Assembly (NCBI GenBank): GCA_020852705.1 | Contig: JADZAP010000001.1 | Coordinates: 62,001 to 126,000, forward strand | Direction of reading: 5' to 3' | Origin: Ignavibacteria bacterium | Lineage (GTDB): Bacteria > Bacteroidota > Ignavibacteria > Tepidaquicellales > OLB5 | DNA length: 64,000 nt | In this document: one piece after another, positions 12,810-33,669 of the stretch | Numbering within the stretch: position 1 is the stretch's first letter | Layout: each line of letters begins with the position of its first letter | Position numbers and translations under genes: made by a program | The notes under the pieces: generated by a model | What the model was told of the DNA's origin: nothing | Seen by the model: only the letters and a program-made list of their open reading frames with translations | Databases searched by the model: none

Positions 12810-13535
12810 ATGAAACTTCAAAATAAAACAGCAATTATTACCGGTGCGGGTAAAGGTATTGGGAAAGCTGCAGCTGAGCTATTTCTTAAAGAAGGCGCAA
12901 AGGTTATTTTAAATTCGCGAAGCAAAACAGAGCTTGAGCAGATTATCAGCGAAAATAAAAATCTACGGGGAAATATAGCTGTAGTTCCAGGCGATATTTC
13001 CAAAGAAGATACCATAAATAAAGTTACTGATGAAGCCATTTCTAAATTTGGCGGAATAGATATTCTTGTTAATAATGCCGGCTTTGGTAAGTTCGGAAAT
13101 TTAGTTGATTCTAAAACAGAAGATTTTGATGCTGTTTTTAATACCAACGTTAAGGCATTATACATTATGACAAAAAAAGTTCTGCCTTACATGATAAAAC
13201 AAAAATCAGGTACAATAATCAATATTGCTTCTATTGCAGGAAAAGTTGGAATTGCATCAGGCAGTATATATTGCGCAAGCAAACATGCTGTTATGGGCTT
13301 AAGCAGAGCATTAATGCTGGAAGTAAGAAAGTATAATATCAGAGTAATTGCAATTTGCCCCGGCAGTGTTGCTACTGATTTTTTCAGACCTGAGTCTATG
13401 ACAGAAATTGGCTGGAAAAAGGAAACTGTTCTGCAGGCAAATGATATTGCGGAATCTATTCTTCTTGCAGCTTCGCTGCCGGAATCTGCAACAATAAGTG
13501 AAATTGAATTAAGACCTACAAACCCGAGTAAATAA
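12810..13535 (+). CDS. short-chain dehydrogenase, 3-oxoacyl-ACP reductase-like, 241 aa
   Basis: SDR with TGAGKGIG (residues 11-18), NNAG (88-91), catalytic Ser in NIASIAGK and YCASK (Tyr-x3-Lys, about 152-156). NSRSK after the second strand is compatible with NADPH. The TGAGKGIG/NNAG combination is usual for FabG-type 3-oxoacyl reductases, but many SDRs with other substrates share it, so FabG itself is not claimed. About 115 bases separate it from the preceding SDR gene. A ribosome binding site is not obvious. Confidence 0.88.
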   Translation: MKLQNKTAIITGAGKGIGKAAAELFLKEGAKVILNSRSKTELEQIISENKNLRGNIAVVPGDISKEDTINKVTDEAISKFGGIDILVNNAGFGKFGNLVDSKTEDFDAVFNTNVKALYIMTKKVLPYMIKQKSGTIINIASIAGKVGIASGSIYCASKHAVMGLSRALMLEVRKYNIRVIAICPGSVATDFFRPESMTEIGWKKETVLQANDIAESILLAASLPESATISEIELRPTNPSK

Positions 13536-13569
13536 AATCTGCATTTCCCTGAAAATTAAAACCCAAGAA

Positions 13570-13648
13570 AGTTATATTTAGTTATAGAATGTTTAAAAAA
13601 AAAGCCACTTGCATTCTATAACAATTAGTTATATATTAGTTATAGAAT
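13570..13648 (+). promoter_or_regulatory. repeated GTTATAGAAT operator-like sites
   Basis: Three copies of GTTATAGAAT lie just before the HTH-GHKL gene: forward at 13581-13590, inverted at 13613-13622 and forward at 13639-13648. The first two form an 11-base perfect inverted repeat (GTTATAGAATG/CATTCTATAAC). The forward copies sit within a longer direct repeat, AGTTATAT(A)TTAGTTATAGAAT, at 13570-13590 and 13627-13648. The last copy ends about 20 bases before the start codon, where a bound repressor would block transcription or translation. Autoregulation by the gene's own HTH is an inference. Confidence 0.5.
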
Positions 13649-13667
13649 AATTGAAAATAATTATAAA

Positions 13668-14717
13668 ATGCAATCTATAACTAAAAATAGCGATATTTCC
13701 TCCATAATTCTTAAATATGTTAGTGAAAAACAGATATTTAAGATTAAAGATATTGTAAAAGTTACAGGCCTATCGCAGCCATACATCAACAGAATTGTAA
13801 ATATACTCATCGAAAACGGTTTATTGGTAAAATCAGGCAATGGTAAAAATACAATTTACACTAAACCGGGATATAATTTATCTAAAGATACCGATAAAAT
13901 AAAACTGCGTTTTATTAATAAAGGTCTTTCAGAAAGTGATGTTCTTGAGGATATTAACAGAAGAACTTCAATTTTTAATTCTTCAAAAAAAAATGTTCAA
14001 TCAATAGCTGAATATGCTTTTAATGAAATGCTCAATAATGCAATTGAACACTCTAACGGAGAAAATATCACAATTTCCGCAGAAAGAGCAAACGGGATAA
14101 TTAGATTTGATATTACAGATAACGGTATAGGTATATTTAATAATCTTGCAAAAAAGTTTAAGCTGAAAAATGAAATCGAAGCAGTACAGGAGCTCTTAAA
14201 AGGCAAGAAAACAACATTTCCTGCGGCTCATTCCGGTGAAGGGATATTCTTCACTTCCAAAGCATCTGATACTTTTATTATTCAAAGCTCCGGTAAAAAA
14301 TTATTTGTAAATAATCTGATAAATGACTTAATCTTAACCAACTCAAAAGTGAACACAGGCACAAAAGTTACATTTACGTTATCTGAAAAATCAGTTAAAG
14401 AATTAAATAAAATATTTGATGAATATACTGATGAAGACTTTGAATTCAATAAAACTAAAATTCATGTAAAGCTATATAAGCATGGTACTGAATACCTTTC
14501 ACGCTCACAAGCCCGGAGAATATTAGCAGGGCTGGAGAAGTTTAAATTCATCTTACTTGATTTTAAGGATGTAATAGAAGCAGGGCAGGCATTTTCTGAT
14601 GAAATTTTCAGAGTATTTAAAAATTCCAACCCCGATAAAAAAATAGAATATATTAATGCAAATGATAATGTAGAATTTATGATAAAACGGGCATTAGCTA
14701 ATGATATTTGGAAATAA
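13668..14717 (+). CDS. HTH - GHKL ATPase - STAS-like (DUF4325) regulator, 349 aa
   Basis: Three parts in order. A winged-helix HTH (about 10-65; SQPYINRIVNILIENGLL is the recognition region). A GHKL/HATPase domain with N-box NEMLNNAIEHS (119-129), DNGIGI (151-156) and a GEG loop (190-192), resembling anti-sigma or histidine-kinase ATP domains but with no phospho-accepting His. A C-terminal STAS-like domain (about 260-345, LLDFKDVIEAGQAFSDEIFR) of the DUF4325 kind. It likely binds DNA and switches state with ATP, by analogy with SpoIIAB/SpoIIAA partner switching placed in one chain. It is coupled to the PLD gene: its stop lies five bases before that gene's likely start. Confidence 0.82.
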   Translation: MQSITKNSDISSIILKYVSEKQIFKIKDIVKVTGLSQPYINRIVNILIENGLLVKSGNGKNTIYTKPGYNLSKDTDKIKLRFINKGLSESDVLEDINRRTSIFNSSKKNVQSIAEYAFNEMLNNAIEHSNGENITISAERANGIIRFDITDNGIGIFNNLAKKFKLKNEIEAVQELLKGKKTTFPAAHSGEGIFFTSKASDTFIIQSSGKKLFVNNLINDLILTNSKVNTGTKVTFTLSEKSVKELNKIFDEYTDEDFEFNKTKIHVKLYKHGTEYLSRSQARRILAGLEKFKFILLDFKDVIEAGQAFSDEIFRVFKNSNPDKKIEYINANDNVEFMIKRALANDIWK

Positions 14718-20974: not shown

Positions 20975-22771
20975 ATGAAATACTTTTGCTCCGCATTGAT
21001 TTTCCTTCTTTTTGTATCTGCTTTAAAATCACAGGTTTACAATCAAAACTTTGATTACCTTGACCCTCTGCCAAATTCAAAATATATTAATGAGGAGGCA
21101 TCAATAATTATTCGTCCAAAAACAAACATTAACATTAATACTATTATACAATCAGGGGCAATCAGATTATTGGCAAATAATGTTTCTGAGCTGCCTTTTA
21201 ATTATAAAATTGCTGATAGCGGAAAAGTAATTCTTTTAAAACCTTTAATGAATTTTAAAACCTTTGATAGTATTTATGTTTATTTTACTGACTCAATTAA
21301 AACAACAAATGGTGAATCGATTACTCCTTTTAACTATAAATTTTATATAACCGGTAATTCTACTAATAAAGGATTATTTTCAAAATATGAGAGAAATTTT
21401 TATAATGATGAATACAATTTTATAAAACACAATTCGCAAATTACAAGCGGAGTACCTCAGCTTACAGTAACTTATTCATCATTCCCTTCTCCGGGAAAGT
21501 TATTTTTTAATAATTTAACCCGAATGCCTGACCCAAATAATACACCTTGTTTATTGATAGCTGATAATGACGGAAATTTTGTATTTTCCAGGCAAATGCC
21601 CGAAGAATGTTACGATTTCAACATTCAGCCAAACGGAATGCTTACTTATTTTGATGGTCAAAAAAATAAATACTATGCTTTAAACAGCAGTTACAATATA
21701 ATAGATAGCTTTTACTGCGGAAACGGTTATACAACTGATTTACACGAATTGAGAATTTTAAATAATGGTCATTTTCTTCTCCTAAGCTACGATGCCCGGG
21801 CATTAATTGATATTGGCGGTGAAAACCCCATGAATGCTACCGTAATTGGTGTTATTGTTCAGGAACTTGATGAAAATAAAGATGTAATTTTTCAGTTCAG
21901 AAGCTGGGATCATTTTCTTATAACCGATGCTACACATGAAAATTTCTCTGCGGCAAAAATTGATTACTGCCACTCTAATGCTATTGAATTTGATAACGAT
22001 GGCTACCTATTGCTTTCTTCAAGAAATATGGATGAAATTACAAAAATTAACAGAGTTACAGGAAAAATTATATGGCGAATGGGAGGGAAAAATAATCAGT
22101 TTACGTTTATTAATGATACAATTGGTTTCTCTCATCAGCATGCTATAAGAAGAATTAAAAACGGTAATGTAACTCTATTTGATAACGGTAATTTTCATAA
22201 CCCGCCGTTTTCCAGAGCTGTTGAATACAAATTAGATGAAGTAAATAAAACTGCAACGCTTGTTTGGCAATTCCGTAACTCCCCCGATATTTATGCACCT
22301 GCCACTGGTTATGTACAAAGACTTGATAACAATAATACCATCATTTGCTGGGGGCTTACTAATCCAACTTTAGCCGAAGTCAGATATGACGGTACCAAAG
22401 TTCTTGAAATGTCATTGCCTCAAGGTGTATTCAGCTACAGGGCATTTAAATATCCTTGGAAAGAAAATCCTAACAGTGAAATTTTACCTCAAAATTTCAG
22501 TCTGCTGCAAAACTATCCTAATCCGTTTAATCCGGTTACAAATATAAAATTTACAGTCCCTAAACTTGAGCAGGAAATTTCAACAGTAAACGTAACTATT
22601 AAAATTTATGACATTACAGGAAAATTGGTTAAAAATCTTTTAAACGATAATTTTTCTGCGGGTACCTATACTGTAAAATTTGACGGAGCAAATTTACCGA
22701 GTAATGTTTATTTTTATGTTTTAAAAAGCGGCAATTACACTGAAACAAAAAAAATGGTGATGGTTAAATAA
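20975..22771 (+). CDS. arylsulfotransferase-family secreted protein with T9SS domain, 598 aa
   Basis: A signal peptide is followed by a short immunoglobulin-like part (about 30-125), then an arylsulfotransferase (Arylsulfotrans_2) propeller. Characteristic pieces are HSNAIEFDNDGYLLLSSRN, ITKINRVTGKIIWRMGG, FSHQHAIRRIKNGNVTLFDN, SRAVEYKLDE and VQRLDNNNTIICWG, with His residues of HSN and SHQH as the likely sulfate-handling ones. Such enzymes move sulfate between phenolic compounds without PAPS. A sorting domain (NYPNPFNPVTNIKF to KKMVMVK) sends it to the surface. This copy lacks the palindromic insert of the two neighbours. Activity is inferred; some relatives are only binding proteins. Confidence 0.85.
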   Translation: MKYFCSALIFLLFVSALKSQVYNQNFDYLDPLPNSKYINEEASIIIRPKTNININTIIQSGAIRLLANNVSELPFNYKIADSGKVILLKPLMNFKTFDSIYVYFTDSIKTTNGESITPFNYKFYITGNSTNKGLFSKYERNFYNDEYNFIKHNSQITSGVPQLTVTYSSFPSPGKLFFNNLTRMPDPNNTPCLLIADNDGNFVFSRQMPEECYDFNIQPNGMLTYFDGQKNKYYALNSSYNIIDSFYCGNGYTTDLHELRILNNGHFLLLSYDARALIDIGGENPMNATVIGVIVQELDENKDVIFQFRSWDHFLITDATHENFSAAKIDYCHSNAIEFDNDGYLLLSSRNMDEITKINRVTGKIIWRMGGKNNQFTFINDTIGFSHQHAIRRIKNGNVTLFDNGNFHNPPFSRAVEYKLDEVNKTATLVWQFRNSPDIYAPATGYVQRLDNNNTIICWGLTNPTLAEVRYDGTKVLEMSLPQGVFSYRAFKYPWKENPNSEILPQNFSLLQNYPNPFNPVTNIKFTVPKLEQEISTVNVTIKIYDITGKLVKNLLNDNFSAGTYTVKFDGANLPSNVYFYVLKSGNYTETKKMVMVK

Positions 22772-22810
22772 TTTATTCAGAAAAATGCATTTGATATGAT
22801 TTAAATTGTA

Positions 22811-22848
22811 ACACCCCGGATTAAATTTATTTCCGGGGTTGTTTTTTT
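22811..22848 (+). terminator. intrinsic terminator
   Basis: ACCCCGGA/TCCGGGGT stem with an 11-base loop, followed by GTTTTTTT. It ends the three-gene T9SS cargo block, before the ABC exporter genes. Confidence 0.85.
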
Positions 22849-22906
22849 CTGCAATCTATATCTTTTGGTATAGTTTGAGGACAAAAATTAAATTAAATTA
22901 GTAAAT

Positions 22907-24664
22907 ATGTATCTAAAACGACTGCTTCCATATTTAAAACTTTACAGGAAAAAGCTTATAATTGGTTTTATTGTAATTGCATTTAGTGCAGTTTTTACTA
23001 ACCTAATTCCCTTTGTTCTATCTAAAGCAATTGATGAGATTAAAAATCATGCAGAGGGAACATCCTTATTGAACTATGCATTGTTGACTGTTGGCTTTGC
23101 AGCTATTAGCGGTGTTTTTCTTTACCTCACAAGGCAGATGATAATTATTGCATCCCGTGAAATTGAAAATGACCTGAGAAATGATTTTCTTAAACATATT
23201 CTTTTTCAGGATCAGCAGTATTTTCATTTCCATTCCACAGGAGATATAATGGCTTTGGCTACTAATGATATTTCTGCTGTCCGTAATTTTCTCGGTCCGG
23301 GAATTATGTACACAGCTGAAACATTGATCAACTTTACAATTGCCGTTTCACTTATGATCTCTTTTAATTTTCAGTTAGCTGTTATTGCTGTTATTCCTAT
23401 ACCATTTATTTCTTATTTAGTTTACCGAATCGGCAAAAGCATTAATTATAAATTTGAAAAAGTTCAGCAGCAATTCAGCGAACTTACAACGCGTGCACAG
23501 GAAAATTTATCAGGCGTAAAAGTTGTTAAAGCTTATGTTAGAGAGCAAAGTGAAACCGAGAGTTTCAGAAAACTTTCCGTTGATTATATGAATAAGAATC
23601 TTGAACTTGCCAAAGTACAGTCTTTTTCATTTCCAATGATGTTATTGCTTACCGGTTTTTCTGCTGTTATTGTACTTTATTTTGGAGGTAATAAAATTAT
23701 CAATGGTGAGCTTACCATTGGCGAGCTTACTGCGTTTATTATTTATCTTGGACTTCTTACCTGGCCAATAATTTCTCTTGGATGGATAATTAACCTTACC
23801 CAGCGTGCCGAAGCTTCCATGAAAAGACTCTGTGAAGTTTTTGATAATAAACCATCTATTAATGATCCTGTTAAAGTTGATACTGTTTTGGCTGTTAATA
23901 ATAAAAATATCACCGGAAACATTGAATTCTCTAATGTTAACTTCAGGTATCACCCCAATTTTCCCTATGTGTTAAAAAATATTAATTTTAAAATTAATGC
24001 AGGCGAAACTATTGGAATAATTGGGCATACCGGTTCGGGTAAGTCAACATTTGTAAATCTTATTTCAAGATTGTTTGATGTTGAAGAAGGAGAAATTCTT
24101 GTTGACGGTAAAAATATTAAACAATATGAACTTAATAAACTTAGATTGGCTATAGCTTATGTGCCTCAGGAAACATTCCTGTTTTCTGATACTATTGAAA
24201 ATAATATAGCTTATGCTGAAAAAAGTTTTGATAAGGAAAAAGTTGTTGAAGCTGCAAAAATTTCTCAGATTTATAAAGATGTTGATAATTTTCCCCGTCG
24301 TTTTGAAACAATACTTGGCGAACGCGGAATAAACCTTTCTGGCGGGCAAAAACAAAGAACTTCTATCGCAAGAGCCATACTTTCTGACCCGCGTATTCTT
24401 ATTCTTGATGATGCGTTTTCTGCTGTTGATACTTATACCGAAGAAGAAATTTTAACAGGCTTAAATGGTGTGATGAAAGGCAGAACAACTTTACTTATCA
24501 GCCATAGGATTTCTACCTTAAAAAACTCTAATAGGATAATTGTATTTAAAGATGGAAGCATTGCTGAAGAAGGAACACACGAATCCCTTATCCAAAAAGA
24601 AGGAATATACGCTGATATATACTTTAAACAGCTGCTTGAAGATGAATTAAGGGATTTGGATTGA
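22907..24664 (+). CDS. ABC exporter, degenerate-site half, 585 aa
   Basis: Type IV ABC exporter half: six membrane spans (residues 1-310) followed by a nucleotide-binding domain with Walker A GHTGSGKST (about 372-380), signature LSGGQ (about 477) and an H-loop in ISHRIST. Walker B reads ILILDDAFSAVD: the catalytic Glu after the Asp is replaced by Asp, so this half has a weak ATP site. It pairs with the next gene, 12 bases on, which has a normal site. This is the arrangement of TM287/288-type and BmrCD-type heterodimers. It exports lipids, drugs or peptides, substrate unknown. Confidence 0.93.
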   Translation: MYLKRLLPYLKLYRKKLIIGFIVIAFSAVFTNLIPFVLSKAIDEIKNHAEGTSLLNYALLTVGFAAISGVFLYLTRQMIIIASREIENDLRNDFLKHILFQDQQYFHFHSTGDIMALATNDISAVRNFLGPGIMYTAETLINFTIAVSLMISFNFQLAVIAVIPIPFISYLVYRIGKSINYKFEKVQQQFSELTTRAQENLSGVKVVKAYVREQSETESFRKLSVDYMNKNLELAKVQSFSFPMMLLLTGFSAVIVLYFGGNKIINGELTIGELTAFIIYLGLLTWPIISLGWIINLTQRAEASMKRLCEVFDNKPSINDPVKVDTVLAVNNKNITGNIEFSNVNFRYHPNFPYVLKNINFKINAGETIGIIGHTGSGKSTFVNLISRLFDVEEGEILVDGKNIKQYELNKLRLAIAYVPQETFLFSDTIENNIAYAEKSFDKEKVVEAAKISQIYKDVDNFPRRFETILGERGINLSGGQKQRTSIARAILSDPRILILDDAFSAVDTYTEEEILTGLNGVMKGRTTLLISHRISTLKNSNRIIVFKDGSIAEEGTHESLIQKEGIYADIYFKQLLEDELRDLD

Positions 24665-24676
24665 AATAAAATTATT

Positions 24677-26485
24677 TTGGCAGAAGAAAAGAAAATAAAT
24701 ATCATTGAGCCTGATGAAAATGAGCAGGAAGAAGTTTTAGGCAAGGCATACGATACCCGCCTTATGAAACGGCTTATAAAATATCTTAAACCTTATGTAA
24801 AATGGGTTGTTTTTTCTGTTCTTCTTACTGTTGGTGTTGCATTATTAAGTACCTTAAGACCTTATTTAACCAAAATTGCAATTGATAATTACATTGTTAA
24901 TAAAGATACCGTTGGTTTACGCAATATTATCTTAATTCTTCTGGCAACTCTTGTATTTCAGGGATTGATGCAATATTCCATGACTTACCTTACTCAGTGG
25001 ATTGGACAGAAAACTATATTTGATCTGCGTATGGAGCTTTTTAACCACATACAGAAACTTTCAATGAGTTTTTTTGATAAAAATCCGGTTGGCAGATTGG
25101 TTACCAGACTTACTAATGATATTGAAGTTTTAAATGAAATGTTTTCTTCCGGAATTGTAATGGTTTTTGCCGATGTTTTTATTATTGCAGGTATATTGTT
25201 CTTTATGTTCAGTTTAAGCTGGCAGCTCACTTTAATTTCTTTATCAGTAATTATTCCGTTAATATATGCAACTGTAATTTTCAGAAGAAAAGTTAGAGCA
25301 GCTTTTAGAGATGTAAGGTTTTACCTTGCTAAGATGAATGCTTTTCTTCAGGAACACATTAGCGGCATTATGGTAGTTAAAATTTTCGTAAAAGAAAAAA
25401 AGACTGTTAATGAATTTAAAGAAATAAATTTTGATCATACTAAAGCCAATAAAAGATCTGTAAAGTATTATTCAGTATTTTTCCCTGTGGTTGAGCTAAT
25501 TGGAGCAATATCAGGTGCTTTAATTATCTGGTACGGCGGAGCTAAAGCTCTAGAGGGTGTTCTAACTATCGGGATTCTTGTTTCCTTTATTCAGTATTCT
25601 GAAATGTTTTTCAGACCTATTAGAGATCTTTCTGAAAAGTATAATATTATGCAAACAGCTATGGCATCTTCAGAAAGGATATTCAGACTGCTTGACAGAA
25701 AACCGCAGATTGTTGATCCCGAAAACCCCGTTAAGTTTGAAAACTGCAAAGGGGTTATCTCCTTTAAAAATGTTTCATTTGCTTATGTAAAAAAGAATTT
25801 TGTGCTGAAAGATATTTCTTTCAATATTAAACAGGGTGAAAAAGTTGCATTTGTTGGTGCCACCGGAGCAGGTAAATCATCTATTATGAACCTGCTTTGC
25901 AGGTTTTATGATGCTCAATACGGCGAAATAACTATTGATGATATTAATATTAAAGATATCAGTCAGGATGATCTTAGAAAAAATATCGGACTTGTGGTGC
26001 AGGATATTTTTCTCTTTTCTGATTCAATTGGTAATAATATAAGTCTTAAAAACAATTTGATAACTGAAAGCAAAATCAAAGAATCAGCTGAAATAATAGG
26101 TATTGATAAATTTATTTCAAAACTTCCGCTAGGTTACAGGCAAAATGTTAAAGAAAGGGGAGTTACACTTTCGCAGGGTGAGCGTCAGCTTATCACCTTT
26201 GCAAGGGCTCTTGCCTATGATCCCAAAATACTTATTTTAGATGAGGCAACTTCTAGTGTTGATACTCACTCCGAATTATTAATTCAAAATGCTATTGATA
26301 AACTTATGGAAGGCAGAACCTCTATAATAATTGCACACAGGCTTTCTACAATTCAAAAATGTGATAAAATTATTGTTATGCATAAAGGTGAAATAAGAGA
26401 AATGGGTACTCACATGCAGCTGCTTGAGCTTGGCGGAATTTATTCTAAACTTTACCAGCTGCAGTATAAAGAATCTAATGCCTGA
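24677..26485 (+). CDS. ABC exporter, catalytic half, 602 aa
   Basis: Partner of the preceding gene. A cytoplasmic N-terminal stretch (about 1-35, acidic) is followed by six spans and a nucleotide-binding domain with Walker A GATGAGKSS (about 393-401), signature LSQGE (about 498; the G-to-Q change is usual in such heterodimers), Walker B ILILDEATSSVD with intact Glu, and the H-loop IIAHRLST. The start is TTG at 24677; the first in-frame ATG is over 20 codons on and would remove the conserved-looking N-terminus. It lies 12 bases after its partner, so the two are co-translated. Confidence 0.94.
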   Translation: MAEEKKINIIEPDENEQEEVLGKAYDTRLMKRLIKYLKPYVKWVVFSVLLTVGVALLSTLRPYLTKIAIDNYIVNKDTVGLRNIILILLATLVFQGLMQYSMTYLTQWIGQKTIFDLRMELFNHIQKLSMSFFDKNPVGRLVTRLTNDIEVLNEMFSSGIVMVFADVFIIAGILFFMFSLSWQLTLISLSVIIPLIYATVIFRRKVRAAFRDVRFYLAKMNAFLQEHISGIMVVKIFVKEKKTVNEFKEINFDHTKANKRSVKYYSVFFPVVELIGAISGALIIWYGGAKALEGVLTIGILVSFIQYSEMFFRPIRDLSEKYNIMQTAMASSERIFRLLDRKPQIVDPENPVKFENCKGVISFKNVSFAYVKKNFVLKDISFNIKQGEKVAFVGATGAGKSSIMNLLCRFYDAQYGEITIDDINIKDISQDDLRKNIGLVVQDIFLFSDSIGNNISLKNNLITESKIKESAEIIGIDKFISKLPLGYRQNVKERGVTLSQGERQLITFARALAYDPKILILDEATSSVDTHSELLIQNAIDKLMEGRTSIIIAHRLSTIQKCDKIIVMHKGEIREMGTHMQLLELGGIYSKLYQLQYKESNA

Positions 26486-26493
26486 ATTAATTT

Positions 26494-27093
26494 ATGCTTA
26501 AAAAAATATTTATAGCATCTAAAAACAAAGGCAAAGTTCAGGAAATTAGTTTTGCTTTAAAGAAATTAAATTATGAGATTTTTTCTCTTATAGATACTCC
26601 TAATATTGATGATATTCCTGAAACTGGAAACTCCTTTGAAGAAAATGCTTACTTAAAAGCTAAATCTGTTTTTGATATTGTAAAAATTCCTGTCATTTCT
26701 GATGATTCCGGTTTGGAAGTGGATTTTTTAAATGGAGAACCGGGAATCTATTCTGCCCGTTACAGCGGTGCAGAATCTGATGATACAAAAAATATCAAAT
26801 TACTCCTTAAAAAGCTTGGTAACACTTTGATTAATAAAAGAACAGCAAGGTTTAAGTGTGTTATGGTTTTATATGATGGCATTAATAAAAGGGTTTTTGA
26901 TGGTGAATGTGAAGGTGTAATTTTATTTTCTCCTAAAGGTGAAAATGGCTTTGGGTATGATCCGGTTTTCCAGCCGATTGGATACGACCAAAGTTTTGCC
27001 CAAATGAAAATTGAGGAAAAGGAAAAAATTTCTCACAGAGGTAAAGCTCTTAAAAGTCTTTTTAAATATTTAGAACTTGAAAGCAATATGTAG
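26494..27093 (+). CDS. rdgB: XTP/dITP diphosphatase (RdgB/HAM1)
   Basis: Hydrolyses deaminated purine nucleotides (dITP, XTP) to the monophosphates, protecting DNA and RNA. At 199 residues it is the normal size, with SKNKGKVQEI (start), SDDSGLEVDFLNGEPGIYSARYSG (metal and base binding), FGYDPVF and SHRGKAL near the end, all family hallmarks. It lies eight bases after the ABC gene and is probably in the same transcript, with no functional link evident. Confidence 0.96.
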   Translation: MLKKIFIASKNKGKVQEISFALKKLNYEIFSLIDTPNIDDIPETGNSFEENAYLKAKSVFDIVKIPVISDDSGLEVDFLNGEPGIYSARYSGAESDDTKNIKLLLKKLGNTLINKRTARFKCVMVLYDGINKRVFDGECEGVILFSPKGENGFGYDPVFQPIGYDQSFAQMKIEEKEKISHRGKALKSLFKYLELESNM

Positions 27094-27162
27094 ATTTTTA
27101 AGTCTTGAAGGTTTTTATTTAATGTTTTATTTTTGTAATCTGTTTTAAAATATGTATTTATT

Positions 27163-27238
27163 GCTGGCGTAGCTCAGCTGGTAGAGCAGCGCACTTGTAA
27201 TGCGCAGGTCGGGGGTTCAAGTCCCTTCGCCAGCTCCA
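27163..27238 (+). tRNA. trnT: tRNA-Thr (anticodon TGT)
   Basis: Full cloverleaf: acceptor GCTGGCG/CGCCAGC, anticodon stem GCGCA/TGCGC with loop CTTGTAA (anticodon TGT, reads ACA), T-loop GGTTCAAGTC, discriminator T, and encoded CCA. A terminator follows directly. About 45 bases further on a broken second copy begins (27321). Confidence 0.97.
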
Positions 27239-27242
27239 GAAG

Positions 27243-27266
27243 CCCGTTAATTTAGCGGGTTTTTTT
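27243..27266 (+). terminator. terminator of tRNA-Thr
   Basis: CCCGTTAA/TTTAGCGGG stem with a G-T pair, then seven Ts. It is repeated exactly 182 bases further on as part of the broken tRNA copy. Confidence 0.85.
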
Positions 27267-27332
27267 ATGAGTATTATCCTTGCAGAGATCAATTTGAAAT
27301 CAAAATTAAACAATTTTTTTGGTAGAGCAGCG

Positions 27333-27348
27333 TCCCGAGTTCTCGGGA
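27333..27348. repeat. 16-base palindrome TCCCG...CGGGA, copy 1
   Basis: TCCCGAG-TT-CTCGGGA, seven pairs. It replaces the six anticodon-loop bases CACTTG of the duplicated tRNA-Thr. Confidence 0.85.
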
Positions 27349-27368
27349 TAATGCGCAGGTCGGGGGTT

Positions 27369-27384
27369 TCCCGCTAAAGCGGGA
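27369..27384. repeat. 16-base palindrome TCCCG...CGGGA, copy 2
   Basis: TCCCGCT-AA-AGCGGGA, seven pairs, the same length and the same outer five bases as the copy 21 bases upstream, but different inner bases. It replaces part of the T-loop of the duplicated tRNA-Thr. Confidence 0.85.
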
Positions 27385-27458
27385 TTTCGCAGAAGCTCAA
27401 CAATTCCTTCGCCAGCTCCAGAAGCCCGTTAATTTAGCGGGTTTTTTTATGAGTATTA

Positions 27459-27823
27459 ATTTAGTAAACTCTGGTCTATTTACATTTTACCAAAATATTT
27501 GTTGCATAATCTAATTTTAAATAATTAAATATGTTTTTGATATCCCTTATCTGTTATCTATGTTTATAAAAATCAATCTTTAAAAAATACATACTAAAGA
27601 GTTCAAATGTTTTTCAAAAACATGAAATCACATTTTTGAATAATATTTTGTGTTAATTAGTATATTTAGTGTAATTCGTGTTCAAAACTATTACTGTATA
27701 TTAGATGAATGTGTGATCTTTTTTTAAACCACTTTAAATTATTATTTATTAGGTGGTTTTTTAATTATATTTGTATTTAATTTGTTTTTACATTAAAAAA
27801 GTTCAGAACTAATCTGAAAGTCT
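27459..27823. other. 365-base AT-rich gap, no gene seen
   Basis: No coding frame, RNA gene or strong repeat is visible between the broken tRNA copy and the histidine kinase gene. The sequence TATATTTG at 27766-27773 fits the Bacteroidota -7 pattern TAnnTTTG, but I find no matching -33 element. Confidence 0.5.
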
Positions 27824-30493
27824 ATGCCTATTGCCAAAATATTTATTGTGGAAGATGAAGCCATAACAGCACTTGATATTAAAAATACTCTTGAAAAGCT
27901 GAAATATGAAGTAGTCGGTATTTGCAACAGGGGAGATACTGCTGTTAAAGAAATTAGAAAAGCCAAGCCGGATCTTGTTTTAATGGATATATTTCTCAAA
28001 GGAGAAATTGATGGTATTGAAACTGCCCGTCTTTTAAATGTTGCGGGGAAATTACCTGTAATTTATTTATCTGCCCGTACTGATGATGAAACTATTGATC
28101 GTTCAAGATCAACTAATCCTTATGGGTACCTTCTGAAACCTTTAAATGACCGCGATTTGAATTCATGTATTAAATCTGCAATTTACAGAATTGAATCAGA
28201 AAAACGTGTAGATGAAGCAGAAGAATTGCTGAAAGATTCCCGCAGAATGAATATTGCTTTGCTTAACTCAATACCTTCTACAGCTTTTCTGGTAAATCAA
28301 ACAGGACTTGTTACAGCCGTAAATAATCATGCAAAAATTGAAAATTTTCCGACATCTCATTTTCTTAATAAAAAGATTCAAAATCATTTCCCCGGTAATA
28401 CCGGTATAAAGTTTAATGCCTTAATAAAGGAAACATTTGAAACTGGGCTTGAGCAAAAACTTGAGCATTATATTAATTTAGGAAGCGAAAAATTAAAATA
28501 TGAAACCCGCTTTATCAGATGCTCCAAAAACGATTTACTTGTATTGTTTAAAAATTTAAGCAGCAGTAAAAATTATGAAAGTGAACTTAAAAAATCTGAA
28601 GATAAATATAAAAATCTAGTTCAAAATTCCCCTTTTGCTATTACACGGCTGATTATTAAAAATAACAGGTATGAATTTGTAAATGATGAGTTTGTAAAAC
28701 AGTCAGGTTATACTTTAGATGAATTCAACTCACTTTCAAATGAAGAATATCTTAATATGATGCATCCGGATGACCGAAAAATGGTTAACAAAGAATATTC
28801 AAAATGGCTTAATAACGGATGCAAGGGGGTTAAAACTTTAACATACAGAATTTACAATAAAAATAAAAATCTTATTTGGTTAGATAGTTTTCATTATGCT
28901 GATGTTAATACAGACGGATCAATTGAAGCCGTAAATCAGATTTATCTTAATATCAGCAAACAAAAAGAAAATGAAGAATACCTTTTAGAATCAAAACAAT
29001 ATCTCGATGCATTTTTTCAGCAGTCTTTAGACGGCATTTTTATTGCAAAACTCAATCCCCCTGTACTATGGAATAATAATAATACTGATGAAAATCTTGA
29101 TAATATTATAAAAAATATAAAAATTATCCGCTCAAACTCACCTCTTGCAGTACAGTTTGGAGTAAATTCCGATGAAGTTGTAAATATTGCCACTGAAAGA
29201 TATTTTAAAGGAAATATGGATGAAGCAAGAAAAAGATGGAGATATTTTCTTAAAAACGGTCATTCTCATACAAAAGAATATTATCAGCGCAATGACGGAA
29301 GCAGGATTTTTATTGAAGGAGATTATTTCTGCCTGTATAACAGTAACGGTTTATTTTCCGGTTATATGGGAATTCAAAGAGATATAACCGAAAAACATTC
29401 TGCTGATGAATTGATTAAAAAAAGTGAAGAAAAGTATAGAAACTTTGTAAAACACAGTTCAGAAGGTATTTTCAGACTGGAATTTTCTCAAAAAATATCC
29501 GTTAACCTTCCTGTTGATAAACAGGTTGAATTGATAATTAAATATGTTCATATTGCTGAGTGTAACACTGTTTTTGCAAAAATGTATGATGAAAATGACC
29601 CTGCTAATTTAACAGGTAAACCTGTATTTAATTTAAAATATACAAATCTTGATCTTAAGGGACGAATTCTAAAATTTGTTATAAATGATTATAATATTAC
29701 AGAAGATGAAATAAACGAACATGATAAAGATGGAAATGTAAAATCGTTTGTTATTAACGCAGCCGGAGTTATTGAAGATGGAATTTTAACAAGTATATGG
29801 GGTATTCAAAGAGATGTTTCTGAGAAAAAAAGATCTGATGTAGCTTTAAAAAAGTCGTTAACAGAAAAAGAAATACTCCTTAAAGAAATTCACCACAGGG
29901 TTAAAAATAATCTTCAGGTTGTTACTAGCTTGTTAAAGCTGCAAGCCGGGTATATTAAAGATGAAAATATTAAGCTGCTTTTCAAAGAAAGCCAGGATAG
30001 GGTAAATGCAATGTCCCTTATTCATCAAAAGCTTTATCAGTCTAAAGATCTGGGTCAAATTAATTTTAACGAATATATTGAAACTGTTACAACTCATTTA
30101 CAGCACTCCTATGGAATCCTGGAAGACAGAGTAAAGATAAATACCGATTTTAGCAATATTAAAATGTCAATTGATAATGCTATTCCTGCCGGTTTAATTA
30201 TTAATGAGCTTGTTTCAAATGCCCTTAAACATGCTTTTCCCGGTAATATGAAGGGCTGTATTAATATAAGTGCGGCTTACGATAATTACAGCAAAGAATA
30301 TTGGTTTGTAATAAGAGATAATGGTATAGGTATAAAAAACAAAGTGAATAATGCTAACTCTGAATCATTTGGACTAAAACTTGTTAATACCCTCGTTCAG
30401 CAGCTTGATGGCATAATTGAAATTATTAATTTAAATGGTACAGAGTTTAGAATACATTTTAATAATGCAGACTACAGTGAAAGAAATAATTAA
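27824..30493 (+). CDS. REC - multi-PAS - HisKA_2 sensor histidine kinase, 889 aa
   Basis: Signalling protein with an N-terminal response-regulator receiver (1-125; acidic pair near 11, phospho-Asp55 in LMDI, Lys near 108 in LLKPLN) followed by several PAS-type sensor regions (roughly 130-250, 260-385, 390-530, 545-675). A HisKA_2 dimerisation region holds the phospho-His in EIHHRVKNNLQ (about 687-697), followed by a HATPase with ELVSNALKHAF (N-box) and DNGIGI. There are no membrane segments, so it is a cytoplasmic sensor. The receiver at the start suggests a relay from another kinase. No output regulator lies next to it. Confidence 0.9.
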   Translation: MPIAKIFIVEDEAITALDIKNTLEKLKYEVVGICNRGDTAVKEIRKAKPDLVLMDIFLKGEIDGIETARLLNVAGKLPVIYLSARTDDETIDRSRSTNPYGYLLKPLNDRDLNSCIKSAIYRIESEKRVDEAEELLKDSRRMNIALLNSIPSTAFLVNQTGLVTAVNNHAKIENFPTSHFLNKKIQNHFPGNTGIKFNALIKETFETGLEQKLEHYINLGSEKLKYETRFIRCSKNDLLVLFKNLSSSKNYESELKKSEDKYKNLVQNSPFAITRLIIKNNRYEFVNDEFVKQSGYTLDEFNSLSNEEYLNMMHPDDRKMVNKEYSKWLNNGCKGVKTLTYRIYNKNKNLIWLDSFHYADVNTDGSIEAVNQIYLNISKQKENEEYLLESKQYLDAFFQQSLDGIFIAKLNPPVLWNNNNTDENLDNIIKNIKIIRSNSPLAVQFGVNSDEVVNIATERYFKGNMDEARKRWRYFLKNGHSHTKEYYQRNDGSRIFIEGDYFCLYNSNGLFSGYMGIQRDITEKHSADELIKKSEEKYRNFVKHSSEGIFRLEFSQKISVNLPVDKQVELIIKYVHIAECNTVFAKMYDENDPANLTGKPVFNLKYTNLDLKGRILKFVINDYNITEDEINEHDKDGNVKSFVINAAGVIEDGILTSIWGIQRDVSEKKRSDVALKKSLTEKEILLKEIHHRVKNNLQVVTSLLKLQAGYIKDENIKLLFKESQDRVNAMSLIHQKLYQSKDLGQINFNEYIETVTTHLQHSYGILEDRVKINTDFSNIKMSIDNAIPAGLIINELVSNALKHAFPGNMKGCINISAAYDNYSKEYWFVIRDNGIGIKNKVNNANSESFGLKLVNTLVQQLDGIIEIINLNGTEFRIHFNNADYSERNN

Positions 30494-30582
30494 AATTATT
30501 TTTAAACATTTTAATAACTAAATTTATAATAAGTAATTATTTTTGAATTATTGCTGTCCTTTAAAAGCAGCATCATTTATCC

Positions 30583-31875
30583 ATGAAAAAAATCCATATT
30601 AACAGTTCTTTTTTTATTAATAACCGTGATAAACTTTCAAAACTGCTTTTAAAGAACAGTGTTGCAGTTATTAATTCCAATGATATTATGCCCAGTAATG
30701 CTGATGGTACTATGCGTTTTTTGCAGAACAGTGACCTTTTTTATCTTACCGGAATTGAGCAGGAAGAAACTGTATTGCTTCTTAATCCGGATAACAGTGA
30801 TCCTGAAAGCCGGGAGATCCTCTTTATTAGAGATTACAATCCCGATCTTGAAGTTTGGGAAGGTAAAAAACTTTCTCCTGAAATGGCATCTAAAATTTCA
30901 GGCATTAAAAATGTAGTTGAGCTTTCAAGGTTTGAATTTGTTTTGCATGACATGCTTTGTTATTCAAATAACATTTACCTTAATACCAATGATCATAGCA
31001 GAGCTTTTAACAGTGTTCAATCAAGGGATATGCGGTTTATTTCTTACTGCAAAAAAAATTACCCTCTGCATAATTATCAAAGAATTTCTCCATTACTTTA
31101 CTCCCTTAGAGTTTACAAATCTCCCGAAGAAATTGAACTTATCCAAAAAGCTTGTGATATAACCGGTGATGGATTTAAACGGCTGTTAAAGTTTGTTAAA
31201 CCCGGTGTTATGGAATACGAAGTGCAGGCAGAATTAGCACATGAATTCATAAAACAGGGTACTTTATTTGCTGATTATGAGCCAATTATTGCCTCCGGTG
31301 AAAATGCCTGCTTTTTGCATTACATAAAAAATAATGATAAGTGTAATGAAGGTGATATACTGCTTATGGATTTTGCTTCTGCATGGAGTAACTATAATGC
31401 TGATATGACAAGATCAATTCCCGTGAATGGTAAATTTACAAAAAGACAAAAAAAAGTATATAACGCAGTTTTAAGAGCCTTTAATGGTACAGTAAAAGAA
31501 ATTAAACCCGGTAAAACTGTTAGAGATATTTGTATGATAGCAAGAGAATTAATTTCTAAAGAATTAGTTGTTCTTAAACTTCTAAAAACGAAGGATGTAA
31601 AAGATATAATAATTAAATCTCCCGAATTTAAAAAATATTATCCTCATGATGTTTCTCACTTTTTGGGATTAGGTGTGCATGATGTTGGAATTTTTAATGA
31701 ACCTTTAAAAGCAGGTGCAGTTTTAACCTGCGAACCCGGTATTTATATCAGAGATGAAAAGCTGGGGATAAGATTAGAAAATGATATCCTGTTAACTAAA
31801 AACGGAAATAAAGATTTAATGTCTAATATTCCCATTGAAGCTGATGAAATTGAAGAATTGATGAATTCAAGATGA
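30583..31875 (+). CDS. pepP: Xaa-Pro aminopeptidase (M24B), 430 aa
   Basis: Removes the N-terminal residue before proline from peptides with a two-metal centre. It has an N-terminal creatinase-like domain (about 1-165) and a pita-bread domain whose five metal ligands can be read: Asp near 262 (MDFASAW), Asp near 273 (NADMTRS), His near 357 (VSHFLGLGVHD), Glu near 383 (CEPGIYI) and Glu near 399 (RLENDILL). Length and motifs fit aminopeptidase P. Cytoplasmic, with no signal peptide. It lies 89 bases after the kinase gene and upstream of tRNA-Ser. Confidence 0.94.
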   Translation: MKKIHINSSFFINNRDKLSKLLLKNSVAVINSNDIMPSNADGTMRFLQNSDLFYLTGIEQEETVLLLNPDNSDPESREILFIRDYNPDLEVWEGKKLSPEMASKISGIKNVVELSRFEFVLHDMLCYSNNIYLNTNDHSRAFNSVQSRDMRFISYCKKNYPLHNYQRISPLLYSLRVYKSPEEIELIQKACDITGDGFKRLLKFVKPGVMEYEVQAELAHEFIKQGTLFADYEPIIASGENACFLHYIKNNDKCNEGDILLMDFASAWSNYNADMTRSIPVNGKFTKRQKKVYNAVLRAFNGTVKEIKPGKTVRDICMIARELISKELVVLKLLKTKDVKDIIIKSPEFKKYYPHDVSHFLGLGVHDVGIFNEPLKAGAVLTCEPGIYIRDEKLGIRLENDILLTKNGNKDLMSNIPIEADEIEELMNSR

Positions 31876-31977
31876 TTTAATTTTATGAATATTTTGGATT
31901 TCTGGAAAATTCTTACCCTTTATTAAAAACAATATATTTAGTAAATTTGCAAACTATTGAGCTATTTTCATCAATTC

Positions 31978-32067
31978 GGAGAGGTGGGTGAGTGGCTCAA
32001 ACCAACGGTTTGCTAAACCGTCATAGGGGGTTAACCTCTATCGAGGGTTCGAATCCCTCCCTCTCCG
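31978..32067 (+). tRNA. trnS: tRNA-Ser (anticodon GCT)
   Basis: Class II tRNA with a long variable arm: acceptor GGAGAGG/CCTCTCC, anticodon stem ACGGT/ACCGT with loop TTGCTAA (anticodon GCT, reads AGC/AGT), and T-stem GAGGG/CCCTC with loop TTCGAAT. Discriminator G. CCA is not encoded, unlike tRNA-Thr in this window. A TAAATTTG box (31942-31949) lies about 30 bases upstream and fits the Bacteroidota -7 pattern. Confidence 0.97.
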
Positions 32068-32088
32068 CATTAAAGTAGAATCGTTAAG

Positions 32089-32122
32089 GCAGAGTCTCCT
32101 GATAAGGGACTCTGCTTTTTTT
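32089..32122 (+). terminator. terminator of tRNA-Ser
   Basis: GCAGAGTC/GACTCTGC stem with inner CC/GG pairs around TGATAA, followed by seven Ts. Confidence 0.88.
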
Positions 32123-32123
32123 A

Positions 32124-32222
32124 TGGCTCAAACCAATCCCGAGAGCCGAGAATTAAACGTGTGATTAATTTAACCCTCAACTGCCCGGCAGTTCAATCGA
32201 GGGTTCTCCCCAAGGGACTCTG
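32124..32222 (+). pseudogene. broken tRNA-Ser copy with palindromic replacements
   Basis: Directly after the terminator T-run, pieces of the tRNA-Ser unit recur in order: TGGCTCAAACCAA (13 bases, from 31993), TTAACC (from the variable arm), ATCGAGGGTTC (11 bases, from 32040) and AAGGGACTCTG (11 bases, from the terminator at 32104). Between them the anticodon arm is replaced by a 33-base stretch beginning TCCCGAG, and the base of the T-arm is interrupted by the palindrome AACTGCCCGGCAGTT (32179-32193). The acceptor stem is absent. It is not a functional tRNA. More decayed than the tRNA-Thr copy. Confidence 0.7.
32179..32193. repeat. 15-base palindrome in broken tRNA-Ser copy
   Basis: AACTGCC-C-GGCAGTT, seven pairs, placed between the variable-arm remnant and the T-arm remnant. 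Confidence 0.75.
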
Positions 32223-32282
32223 TTAAGTCCTTAAGTCCTATGGAGAGATCTTGCCTTGCGAAGAAGAAGTTTAATAATTTCT

Positions 32283-32315
32283 CCCCTCTCCTATTAGGAG
32301 AGGGGCAGGGGAGCG
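32283..32315. repeat. intergenic palindromic repeat, CCCCTCTCC family
   Basis: CCCCTCTCCTA-T-TAGGAGAGGGG (32283-32305), eleven pairs, followed by CAGGGGAG, a further piece of the right arm. It has the same architecture as 8048-8076 and as the in-frame element at 19004. Just upstream, TTAAGTCC is repeated in tandem (32223-32238). The rest of 32223-32532 shows no gene. Confidence 0.65.
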
Positions 32316-32532
32316 GTGATAATCTATTCTTCATATTAGGGTCAAATCCGAAGGGAACTCTACGTAGTGGATTGTCTTGTAAATGATAGGTCATAAATCA
32401 AACTCCCATTTTTGTTACTTTACAAAATATTTTATAAAGTATCAATTAATGATACTTATTTAAAAATATATATTTTTATTTTTAAACTTTACTAATATTG
32501 AAATATTAATTTAAATTGTTTTTTTTAAATAG

Positions 32533-32757
32533 TTGATAAGTAAAATTTATTTACCGCATTTTGCTGATTTAAACAAGCCGTGCTTAGCATGCCGCTACTA
32601 TTGCAGAAATACAACTGTTTATGATGCAATGAATTTATTTGAGAGATTAAAAAATGAAGGTGAAAAAATTGAATATGAATATGGTCAGAAATACTGCTTA
32701 AAACAAAAACAGTTTGTTTACTTTAACTGGAACTGTCCTTATTTCAGCAATTGGTAA
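32533..32757 (+). CDS. small Cys-rich protein, 74 aa
   Basis: Unknown function. CxxC at residues 17-20 followed by an aromatic pair and another Cys (CLACRYYC), a helix-like charged middle (MNLFERLKNEGEKIEYEYG) and two further Cys at the end in KYCLKQKQ...NWNCPYF. The CxxC-aromatic start and terminal C-P-x-F are shared with the 60-residue protein at 45-227, although little else is. The start is TTG. Metal binding by four Cys is likely. It sits between the tRNA-Ser region and the convergent agmatinase gene. Confidence 0.55.
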   Translation: MISKIYLPHFADLNKPCLACRYYCRNTTVYDAMNLFERLKNEGEKIEYEYGQKYCLKQKQFVYFNWNCPYFSNW

Positions 32758-32772
32758 TGCAAATATAAATAA

Positions 32773-33669
32773 TCAGAATTTATAATTTAAAATTTTATAT
32801 ATAAGCTTAGCCGTCATAAAATCAGGGAATTTATAATCTTCTTGCGGAGCTAATTCAACAACATCAAAACCTACAAGATTCCGGTTAACGCATACTTCCT
32901 TAAGCAGACGCATTGTTTCATCCCAGTAAAAACCGTTTGGTTCGGGTGTGCCTGTTGCAGGCATAATTGATGGATCAAAATAATCTACATCAAAGGTAAT
33001 ATATACATTTTTCTTCAAAGTACTTATAATTTTTTCTATAAGTTCAGAATTAAATCCCTCATTTCGCATTTGATAGGCATAAAATGTATTTATGCCTTTT
33101 TGTTTTATAAATTCAAATTCCTCTTTACATTGTGCACGGATACCTACCTGAGTAATTTCAGTGGTAAACTCTGCTACCCTTGCTGCAAATGAAGCATGTG
33201 AATATTTTGTGCCATCATATTCGCTTCGCAAATCTGAGTGAGCATCAAAATGAAGTATAGAAAGCTCTTCGTAATTATCAAAATGTGCTTTAATTGGTGC
33301 AGTTGAAATTGAATGCTCACCGCCCAAAGTTACAACAAACTTCCCGTTTTTTATATGTTCTGATACATTATTGTAAATAACATCAAGCACATTTCTTCCC
33401 GAAAGTTTCGCCAAGTTCATTGCTCTAAGTGCCGCGATACCATGTGAAAAACAAACTTCTTTCTCGGTTTCCTCATCAAAAAATTCTACATAGTGCGATG
33501 CTCTTAATATTGCAGCGGGTCCCTTTGCAGTGCCTCTGCCATAAGATGTTGTTTTTTCGTACGGAACTGAAAGTATTACGATTTTAGAATTATCGTATGA
33601 ACTGAACTCTTTTTCGATTGCAAGAAAATTACTTTTTAAGGGAAGTGTTTTGTAGCTCTTTTTTATCAT
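32773..33669 (-). CDS. speB: agmatinase / ureohydrolase, 298 aa
   Basis: Arginase-fold enzyme with a two-manganese centre. All ligands are present: His119 (GGEHS), Asp142, His144 and Asp146 (FDAHSD), Asp227 and Asp229 (FDVDYFDP). The family converts agmatine to putrescine and urea. SYGRGTAKGPAAILRAS near the start and GTPEPNG near 240 support the agmatinase rather than arginase branch, but formiminoglutamase cannot be ruled out. It follows dnaX by 20 bases on the same strand and may share its transcript. Confidence 0.9.
   Translation of the reverse strand: MIKKSYKTLPLKSNFLAIEKEFSSYDNSKIVILSVPYEKTTSYGRGTAKGPAAILRASHYVEFFDEETEKEVCFSHGIAALRAMNLAKLSGRNVLDVIYNNVSEHIKNGKFVVTLGGEHSISTAPIKAHFDNYEELSILHFDAHSDLRSEYDGTKYSHASFAARVAEFTTEITQVGIRAQCKEEFEFIKQKGINTFYAYQMRNEGFNSELIEKIISTLKKNVYITFDVDYFDPSIMPATGTPEPNGFYWDETMRLLKEVCVNRNLVGFDVVELAPQEDYKFPDFMTAKLIYKILNYKF

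Follow-up and report, generated by a model that had tools for sequence, protein, structure and literature searches.

A partial tRNA-Thr copy with hairpins in place of tRNA arms, and a candidate class of small GIY-YIG units at bacterial tRNA genes

The window, the whole stretch of 64,000 nt from an Ignavibacteria bacterium analyzed here, contains an intact tRNA-Thr(UGU) gene with an encoded CCA at 27163..27238, which was called by ARAGORN and by the Rfam tRNA model (70.7 bits); this gene and the other tRNA and tRNA-copy features of the window described below lie on the + strand. Sequence and fold reveal an intrinsic-terminator-like hairpin with a T run 3' of the gene (27243..27266), and a similar terminator, CCCGTC..GGCGGG, is found in relatives. 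After an ORF-less spacer of 43 nt (27277..27319), an incomplete second copy of this tRNA spans 27320-27458, downstream of the intact gene. This broken copy starts in the D loop, as do the GIY-YIG loci described below, with a D-loop/D-stem part corresponding to tRNA positions 17-29 (27320..27332), followed by the perfect 16-nt hairpin TCCCGAGTTCTCGGGA at the position of the anticodon arm (27333..27348). It continues with the 3' side of the anticodon loop and stem, the variable loop and the 5' strand of the T stem (27349..27368), and then with a T-loop insert (27369..27405) composed of the hairpin TCCCGCTAAAGCGGGA (27369-27384) and a TTTCG..CTCAA tail. The remainder (27406..27458) comprises the 3' strands of the T stem and the acceptor stem, CCA, the terminator and 10 nt of flank, and is identical to 27224-27276. 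The flanks of the first hairpin are AGCG/TAAT and those of the second GGTT/TTTC. The tRNA-Thr region folds much more stably than shuffled sequences (z -3.96), an excess due mostly to the terminator and both hairpins. Neither ARAGORN nor Rfam called the broken copy as a tRNA, the first copy alone being called, and nothing except tRNA and rRNA reached the cut-off in a search for known RNA families. Because the terminators 3' of the two copies are the same, the direction of events cannot be read from the window.

An initial annotation had described three exact blocks of 12, 20 and 53 nt shared by the two copies; the two longer blocks were recovered (27198-27217 = 27349-27368; 27224-27276 = 27406-27458), and the first measures 13 nt (27179-27191 = 27320-27332). 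Its statement that both inserts begin with a palindrome of the form TCCCG-N6-CGGGA holds: the window has two occurrences of this pattern, both inside the broken copy, against 0 expected from 100 shuffles. The first insert had been read as replacing six bases of the anticodon loop; the replaced CACTTG is instead made up of 2 nt of anticodon stem and 4 nt of loop. For the second insert the T-loop site was correctly identified, but an insertion between TT and CAA with a small subsequent change in the next bases fits better than the proposed replacement of 6 bases by 37, on comparison with tRNA-Leu(GAG), whose copy in this genome reads GGGGGTT^TCCCG..CGGGATTTCG..CTCAA^CAAGTCC. The T-loop inserts of these two copies have the same form; a search of the genome with the insert of the Thr copy, allowing up to 3 mismatches, returned no second site. 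We agree with the earlier description of the change as precise, located at tRNA hairpins and recent-looking.

The arrangement recurs phylum-wide rather than being one isolated event, and on this point the earlier reading was wrong or incomplete. We read all 40 tRNA genes of the window genome (G000) for adjacent partial copies and found hairpin-bearing copies downstream of Thr-TGT, Leu-GAG, Val-TAC, Asp-GTC, Arg-ACG, Arg-TCT and Ser-GCT and upstream of Ala-GGC, Leu-CAA and Glu-CTC. TCCCG-N6-CGGGA is present at just 10 sites in this genome, half of them in tRNA copies: beyond the two in the Thr copy, 3 lie in partial copies beside tRNA-Val, tRNA-Leu(GAG) and tRNA-Glu, 2 in or beside the repeats of a CRISPR array and the remainder elsewhere. 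When tRNA-adjacent copies were counted uniformly in five genomes by a 13-mer criterion, same-strand partial copies accompanied 8/40 tRNA genes in the window genome, 5/37 in the two-contig genome G008, 7/27 in a genome of another genus of the same family, and 1/25 and 1/27 in two genomes of the order; opposite-strand copies numbered 0 in all five by the same criterion. A stringent signature of the exchange, GAGCR-TCCCG-N2-14-CGGGA-AGG, was found in 33 of 395 sampled genomes of the phylum, representing 29 of 170 genera, with 0 matches to a reversed-pattern control; the signature requires TCCCG..CGGGA by design and thus says nothing on how universal that stem is. At least 11 nt are shared with the adjacent intact tRNA in 34 of the 42 signature copies, and a few matches in G+C-rich genomes may be due to chance. 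Beside the tRNA-Gln (CTG) of G008 lies a tandem array of four 111-bp units, each made up of a terminator, a degenerate 5' tRNA half, a hairpin where the anticodon arm would be, and an exact 3' half. Phage origin was considered and dropped; viral contigs gave two weak matches and no match to the pattern.

Aligning the copies to the intact tRNAs and their ARAGORN structures placed the hairpins at two main positions, the anticodon arm and the T loop. The entire anticodon arm was exchanged for a hairpin, within 1 nt, in 10 of the 13 scored cases involving different tRNAs: Ala-TGC and Arg-TCT in G002; Ile-TAT, Pro-CGG, Gln-CTG, Leu-TAG and Pro-TGG in G008; Ile-GAT and Gly-TCC in G013; and Thr-GGT in G022. 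Under a simple random-breakpoint null, and with junctions partly entered by hand, such agreement has P of about 4e-20. The 3 less exact cases include Val and the Thr copy of the window, where the exchange is off by 3 and 8 nt. At the T loop, two consecutive hairpins are sometimes found, as in Val and Ile of G012. Across nine 16-mer hairpins of differing sequence, 100% of cells were paired, a level reached in 0 of 500 shuffles, in a sample chosen beforehand as hairpins. Orthologous Ile-GAT copies have TGGCGCCGTAGGCGCCA in G002 and TCCCGCCAAAGGCGGGA in G012 at the same place between otherwise similar flanks, a difference that points to either compensated change or replacement. One hairpin, TCCCGACAC..GTGTCGGG, is common to the Pro-CGG, Gln-CTG and Pro-TGG copies of G008. 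The tRNA-Asp copy has TCCCG-ATTAAATCGGGA in G013 and TCCCG-[CCTGCCCCGATAAAATCGGGG]-ATTAAATCGGGA in the window genome, a nested insertion whose insert also occurs in repeats beside the CRISPR array.

Several loci carry, between the intact tRNA and the broken copy, an ORF that is about 80-110 codons long and encodes a GIY-YIG domain (Pfam PF01541, 55-64 bits). Such loci are Asp and Arg-ACG in the window genome; Pro-CGG, fMet and Ser-GCT in G008; Gly-TCC and Asp in G013; Thr-GGT in G022; and Asp in G026; an Ala locus likewise has a unit with a GIY-YIG ORF. Of 25 small GIY-YIG matches in three genomes, 12 lie within 300 bp of a tRNA, where 0.21 were expected, and about half of the small GIY-YIG ORFs are situated away from tRNA genes. 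Among the signature loci, 10/30 contain the ORF. The ORF can also be fused to the tRNA copy: 7 of 17 GIY-YIG ORFs end on the TAG in the D stem of the broken copy (TAG before AGC), directly before the hairpin, and at 3 tRNA-Asp loci from three genera the frame runs through ..CACTCAGGAGGTCGTCCCGA.. or a closely similar sequence, read as HSGGRP, to a stop codon within the hairpin. The Thr unit of the window has no GIY-YIG ORF, the 43-nt spacer occupying the position that the ORF takes at other loci of the class. The second tRNA of the window, tRNA-Ser(GCU) at 31978..32068 (ARAGORN, Rfam), is followed by a degenerate partial copy of itself at 32124..32206 (end coordinate approximate) with a hairpin (TGGCTCAAACCAA, TCCCGAG..., ATCGAGGGTTC). 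In G008 the orthologous site has both a GIY-YIG ORF and a copy of the 3' end; in G002 a GIY-YIG ORF lies at a distance of 145 bp. An intergenic palindromic repeat around CTCCCCTCTCCTATTAGGAGAGGGG occupies 32170-32394, and a mechanical ORF listing gives 74 aa there.

Comparison of orthologous sites showed that the units are present in some genomes and absent from close relatives. Around tRNA-Thr(TGT) in five same-genus genomes the neighbors are conserved and the second copy is absent in 5/5. The Arg-TCT/His site is filled in G000 and G002 and empty in G008, G011 and G012; the Ile/Ala spacer, which belongs to an rRNA operon in G002 and G012, is filled in those two genomes and empty in G008; and the Val-TAC and Pro-TGG sites also differ among relatives. 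The broken copies at Val-TAC and Pro-TGG are followed by a flank or terminator resembling that of the empty relatives, and at Val-TAC the intact tRNA has a different terminator from the broken copy, a pattern that would be expected if a unit bringing a new 3' half with its own terminator had entered the gene. Ordinary drift in relatives, with no palindromes at the loops, had been named beforehand as contrary evidence; the relatives examined gave the opposite picture.

The anatomy, recurrence, empty and filled sites, ORF association, stop-codon fusion and exactness of the arm exchange are consistent with a homing-like element, and we give about an even chance to the reading that the copy in the window is an ORF-less relic of a small, tRNA-anchored GIY-YIG element of a phylum-wide class. 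Although it lacks the ORF, the window copy is placed in this class because it has the same D-loop start (TGG-TAGAGC-AGCG-hairpin), and the unit is accordingly viewed as non-autonomous or decayed. In a complete unit, the intact tRNA is followed, in most cases after a terminator, by a single-domain GIY-YIG ORF and then by the broken version of that tRNA. The latter begins at the D loop, its anticodon arm (or T loop) has given way to a hairpin of the TCCCG..CGGGA type, and its tRNA 3' end and flank are exact. We infer that the units are mobile: the nuclease would cut element-free tRNA genes, donor-templated repair would install a working tRNA 3' half together with the ORF, and the old 3' half would be displaced and persist downstream. 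The hairpin may then mark the former cut region, leaving a remnant that could neither be cut again nor act as a defective tRNA. This reading requires the intact tRNA to escape the nuclease. The finding of tRNA-Asp loci in three different genera hints at homing specific to particular tRNA targets. Simple 3' displacement does not cover the 5' copies upstream of tRNAs, of which Ala-GGC, Leu-CAA and Ile-GAT of G013 keep the 5' half. At G000:C2:25900-27100, the flank on the promoter side is repeated in tandem together with the first 11-12 nt of tRNA-Ala(GGC), each repeat having a palindrome at the would-be D arm. In a more far-reaching version, which we hold only tentatively and think somewhat less probable than its negation, a minimal GIY-YIG nuclease would home into many tRNA isotypes of Bacteroidota-type bacteria and leave hairpin-armed decoys, forming a widespread, undescribed tRNA-parasitic class in which the arm swap is a DNA process at the base of a cruciform or hairpin arm, by a mechanism other than those known.

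The main rival of the homing-like element, or a second contributor beside it, is the insertion of palindromes into hairpin loops. Under this explanation, REP-like mobile palindromes insert into the loops of existing hairpins in single-stranded DNA, the duplicated tRNA copies being dispensable targets. The initial annotation had raised this possibility, and it fits the T-loop inserts and the nested insertion in the tRNA-Asp copy but not the anticodon position, where usually the complete arm is replaced rather than interrupted. Further in its favor is a double-hairpin family of the genus, TCCCGC..GCGGGA-CTTCG-hairpin-CTTG (written TCCCGCYNNRGCGGGA-CTTCG-hairpin-CTTG), which is dispersed in G002, G012, G008 and other same-genus genomes at 1-40 copies per genome where present. 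Its stems covary, the second with compensatory changes, and several of its members lie inside the loop of CTCCCCTCC/GGAGGGGAG palindromes. The T-loop insert is a doubtful full member of this family; window positions 27369-27410 matched the double-hairpin model R1 weakly (24 bits), with the first hairpin matching and the second absent. REP palindromes and REP dimers within palindromes are described in PMC3733652, and the former also in PMC6006769. Like the REP/BIME elements associated with RAYT (TnpA-REP) transposases as presented there, the palindromes considered here are short, dispersed and sometimes found in the loops of others, and same-genus relatives of the window genome carry Y1_Tnp genes (PF01797; 1-9 matches in each of the 12 searched). 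They differ in that the window hairpins lack the GTAG- or CGTC-type foot by which those papers define REP/RAYT, in that their placement is tied to tRNA arms, and in that the window genome, which is 97.6% complete, has 0 Y1_Tnp matches. A REP/RAYT system as the sole cause was rejected on this last ground and on the finding that none of 12 Y1_Tnp genes of relatives had a double-hairpin match beside it. The scarcity of TCCCG-N6-CGGGA sites also speaks against loop insertion, which in addition leaves the GIY-YIG association and the fused stop codons unexplained. We therefore think it unlikely as the whole account; it may have acted together with the homing-like element.

Alternatively, the broken copies may be functional and under selection, either as anticodon-less tRNA-like RNAs or as protective or regulatory DNA signals in which the hairpin would be maintained. 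Pairing is kept while the sequence varies in the nine preselected 16-mers, the orthologous Ile-GAT copies have different hairpins at one position, and the distribution over 33/395 genomes is wide. Set against this, the orthologous sites of close relatives are empty, the copies vary in extent, side and number, and downstream copies have lost or altered the 5' strand of the acceptor stem, so that they form no cloverleaf; selection for function is accordingly an improbable explanation. We place slightly less weight still on template switching or slippage at tRNA hairpins during replication, producing the copy and the palindromes together. The long unmutated blocks adjoining drastic changes and tandem arrays such as that at the G008 tRNA-Gln are as this process would leave them, but the recurrence of TCCCGACAC..GTGTCGGG at unrelated tRNAs of G008 means that this hairpin was not built from a local template, and the association with GIY-YIG ORFs has no place in the scheme.

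A relic of an integrative element that had used the tRNA 3' end was also part of the initial annotation. Its direction was right; no integrase turned up, and the partner that recurs is a single-domain GIY-YIG nuclease ORF. As the attachment-site remnant of a tyrosine-integrase element, the locus would have its 53-nt direct repeat of tRNA 3' end plus flank explained, and attR relics typically take the form of partial tRNA copies (PMC9897764). We rejected this candidate as very improbable: the ORFs of 22000-33500, read by eye, include no integrase, the copies are far too close (merely tens to a few hundred nt apart), and the exchange of an arm for a hairpin is foreign to att sites. Misassembly, which the initial annotation had wanted excluded, or contamination might be suspected in a draft of 75 contigs but is extremely improbable, given independent recurrence at many tRNA genes here and in further genomes, among them assemblies of 1 (G026), 2 (G008) and 4 (G022) contigs.

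GIY-YIG homing elements, both free-standing and intron-borne, are well known. The units described here resemble them in having a small nuclease ORF, in being present or absent at a fixed site and in preserving the function of an essential gene; they differ in lacking an intron, in regenerating the host gene, and in being closed by a hairpin-armed partial tRNA copy that supplies the stop codon of the ORF. Partial tRNA copies left by integrase elements are likewise well known, and integration of ICEs, phages and islands at tRNAs (PMC9897764) also yields an intact tRNA plus a partial 3' copy with an identical 3' end. In the present units, however, the spacing is tens to hundreds of bp, an integrase was not found, hairpins replace the anticodon arm or occupy the T loop, and copies may be multiple, tandem or 5'. 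Hairpin elements are known from mitochondria, and the double-hairpin and repetitive hairpin elements covered in the available part of PMC2800124 are similarly dispersed, non-coding and preserved in their pairing, but are not tied there to tRNA arm exchange or to GIY-YIG/tRNA units. Rickettsia palindromic elements, as cited in the available part of PMC3733652, are also palindromes within genes; these reside in protein-coding genes, and an exchange of arms in tRNA copies is not described in that part. In literature outside subscription journals we found no account of a tRNA-anchored GIY-YIG unit closed by a hairpin-armed tRNA copy, and the element class is apparently undescribed.

The share of examined tRNA genes that carry hairpin-swapped copies reaches roughly a fifth to a quarter in some genomes, and the swap in the broken copies is often precise to a single base, although tRNA genes are among the most constrained in the cell. 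If driven by the nuclease, the units would rank among the smallest elements in essential RNA genes, with an ORF of about 80 codons plus pieces of tRNA, and would have non-autonomous derivatives. Should a DNA process underlie the swap, the spread of palindromes and the placement of hairpins would become testable. Tails of GIY-YIG proteins such as SGGRPD or SGGRPE are explained as the translation of a stretch of tRNA gene, and a tRNA fragment next to a tRNA gene does not necessarily imply an integrase attachment site.

Two further observations concern features other than tRNA copies. At G000:C6:10300-11100 and 13300-14200 in the window genome, a CRISPR array has end repeats with palindromic inserts (GTGCCTGCCCCGATAAAATCGGGG), and a degenerate relative of the region lies 3 kb away. 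At about 48.9 kb of G002:C4, a double-hairpin element separates the 3' end of a cytochrome-c-like gene from a partial second copy of that end, and the order of intact sequence, hairpin and partial copy at this protein gene resembles that of the tRNA cases.
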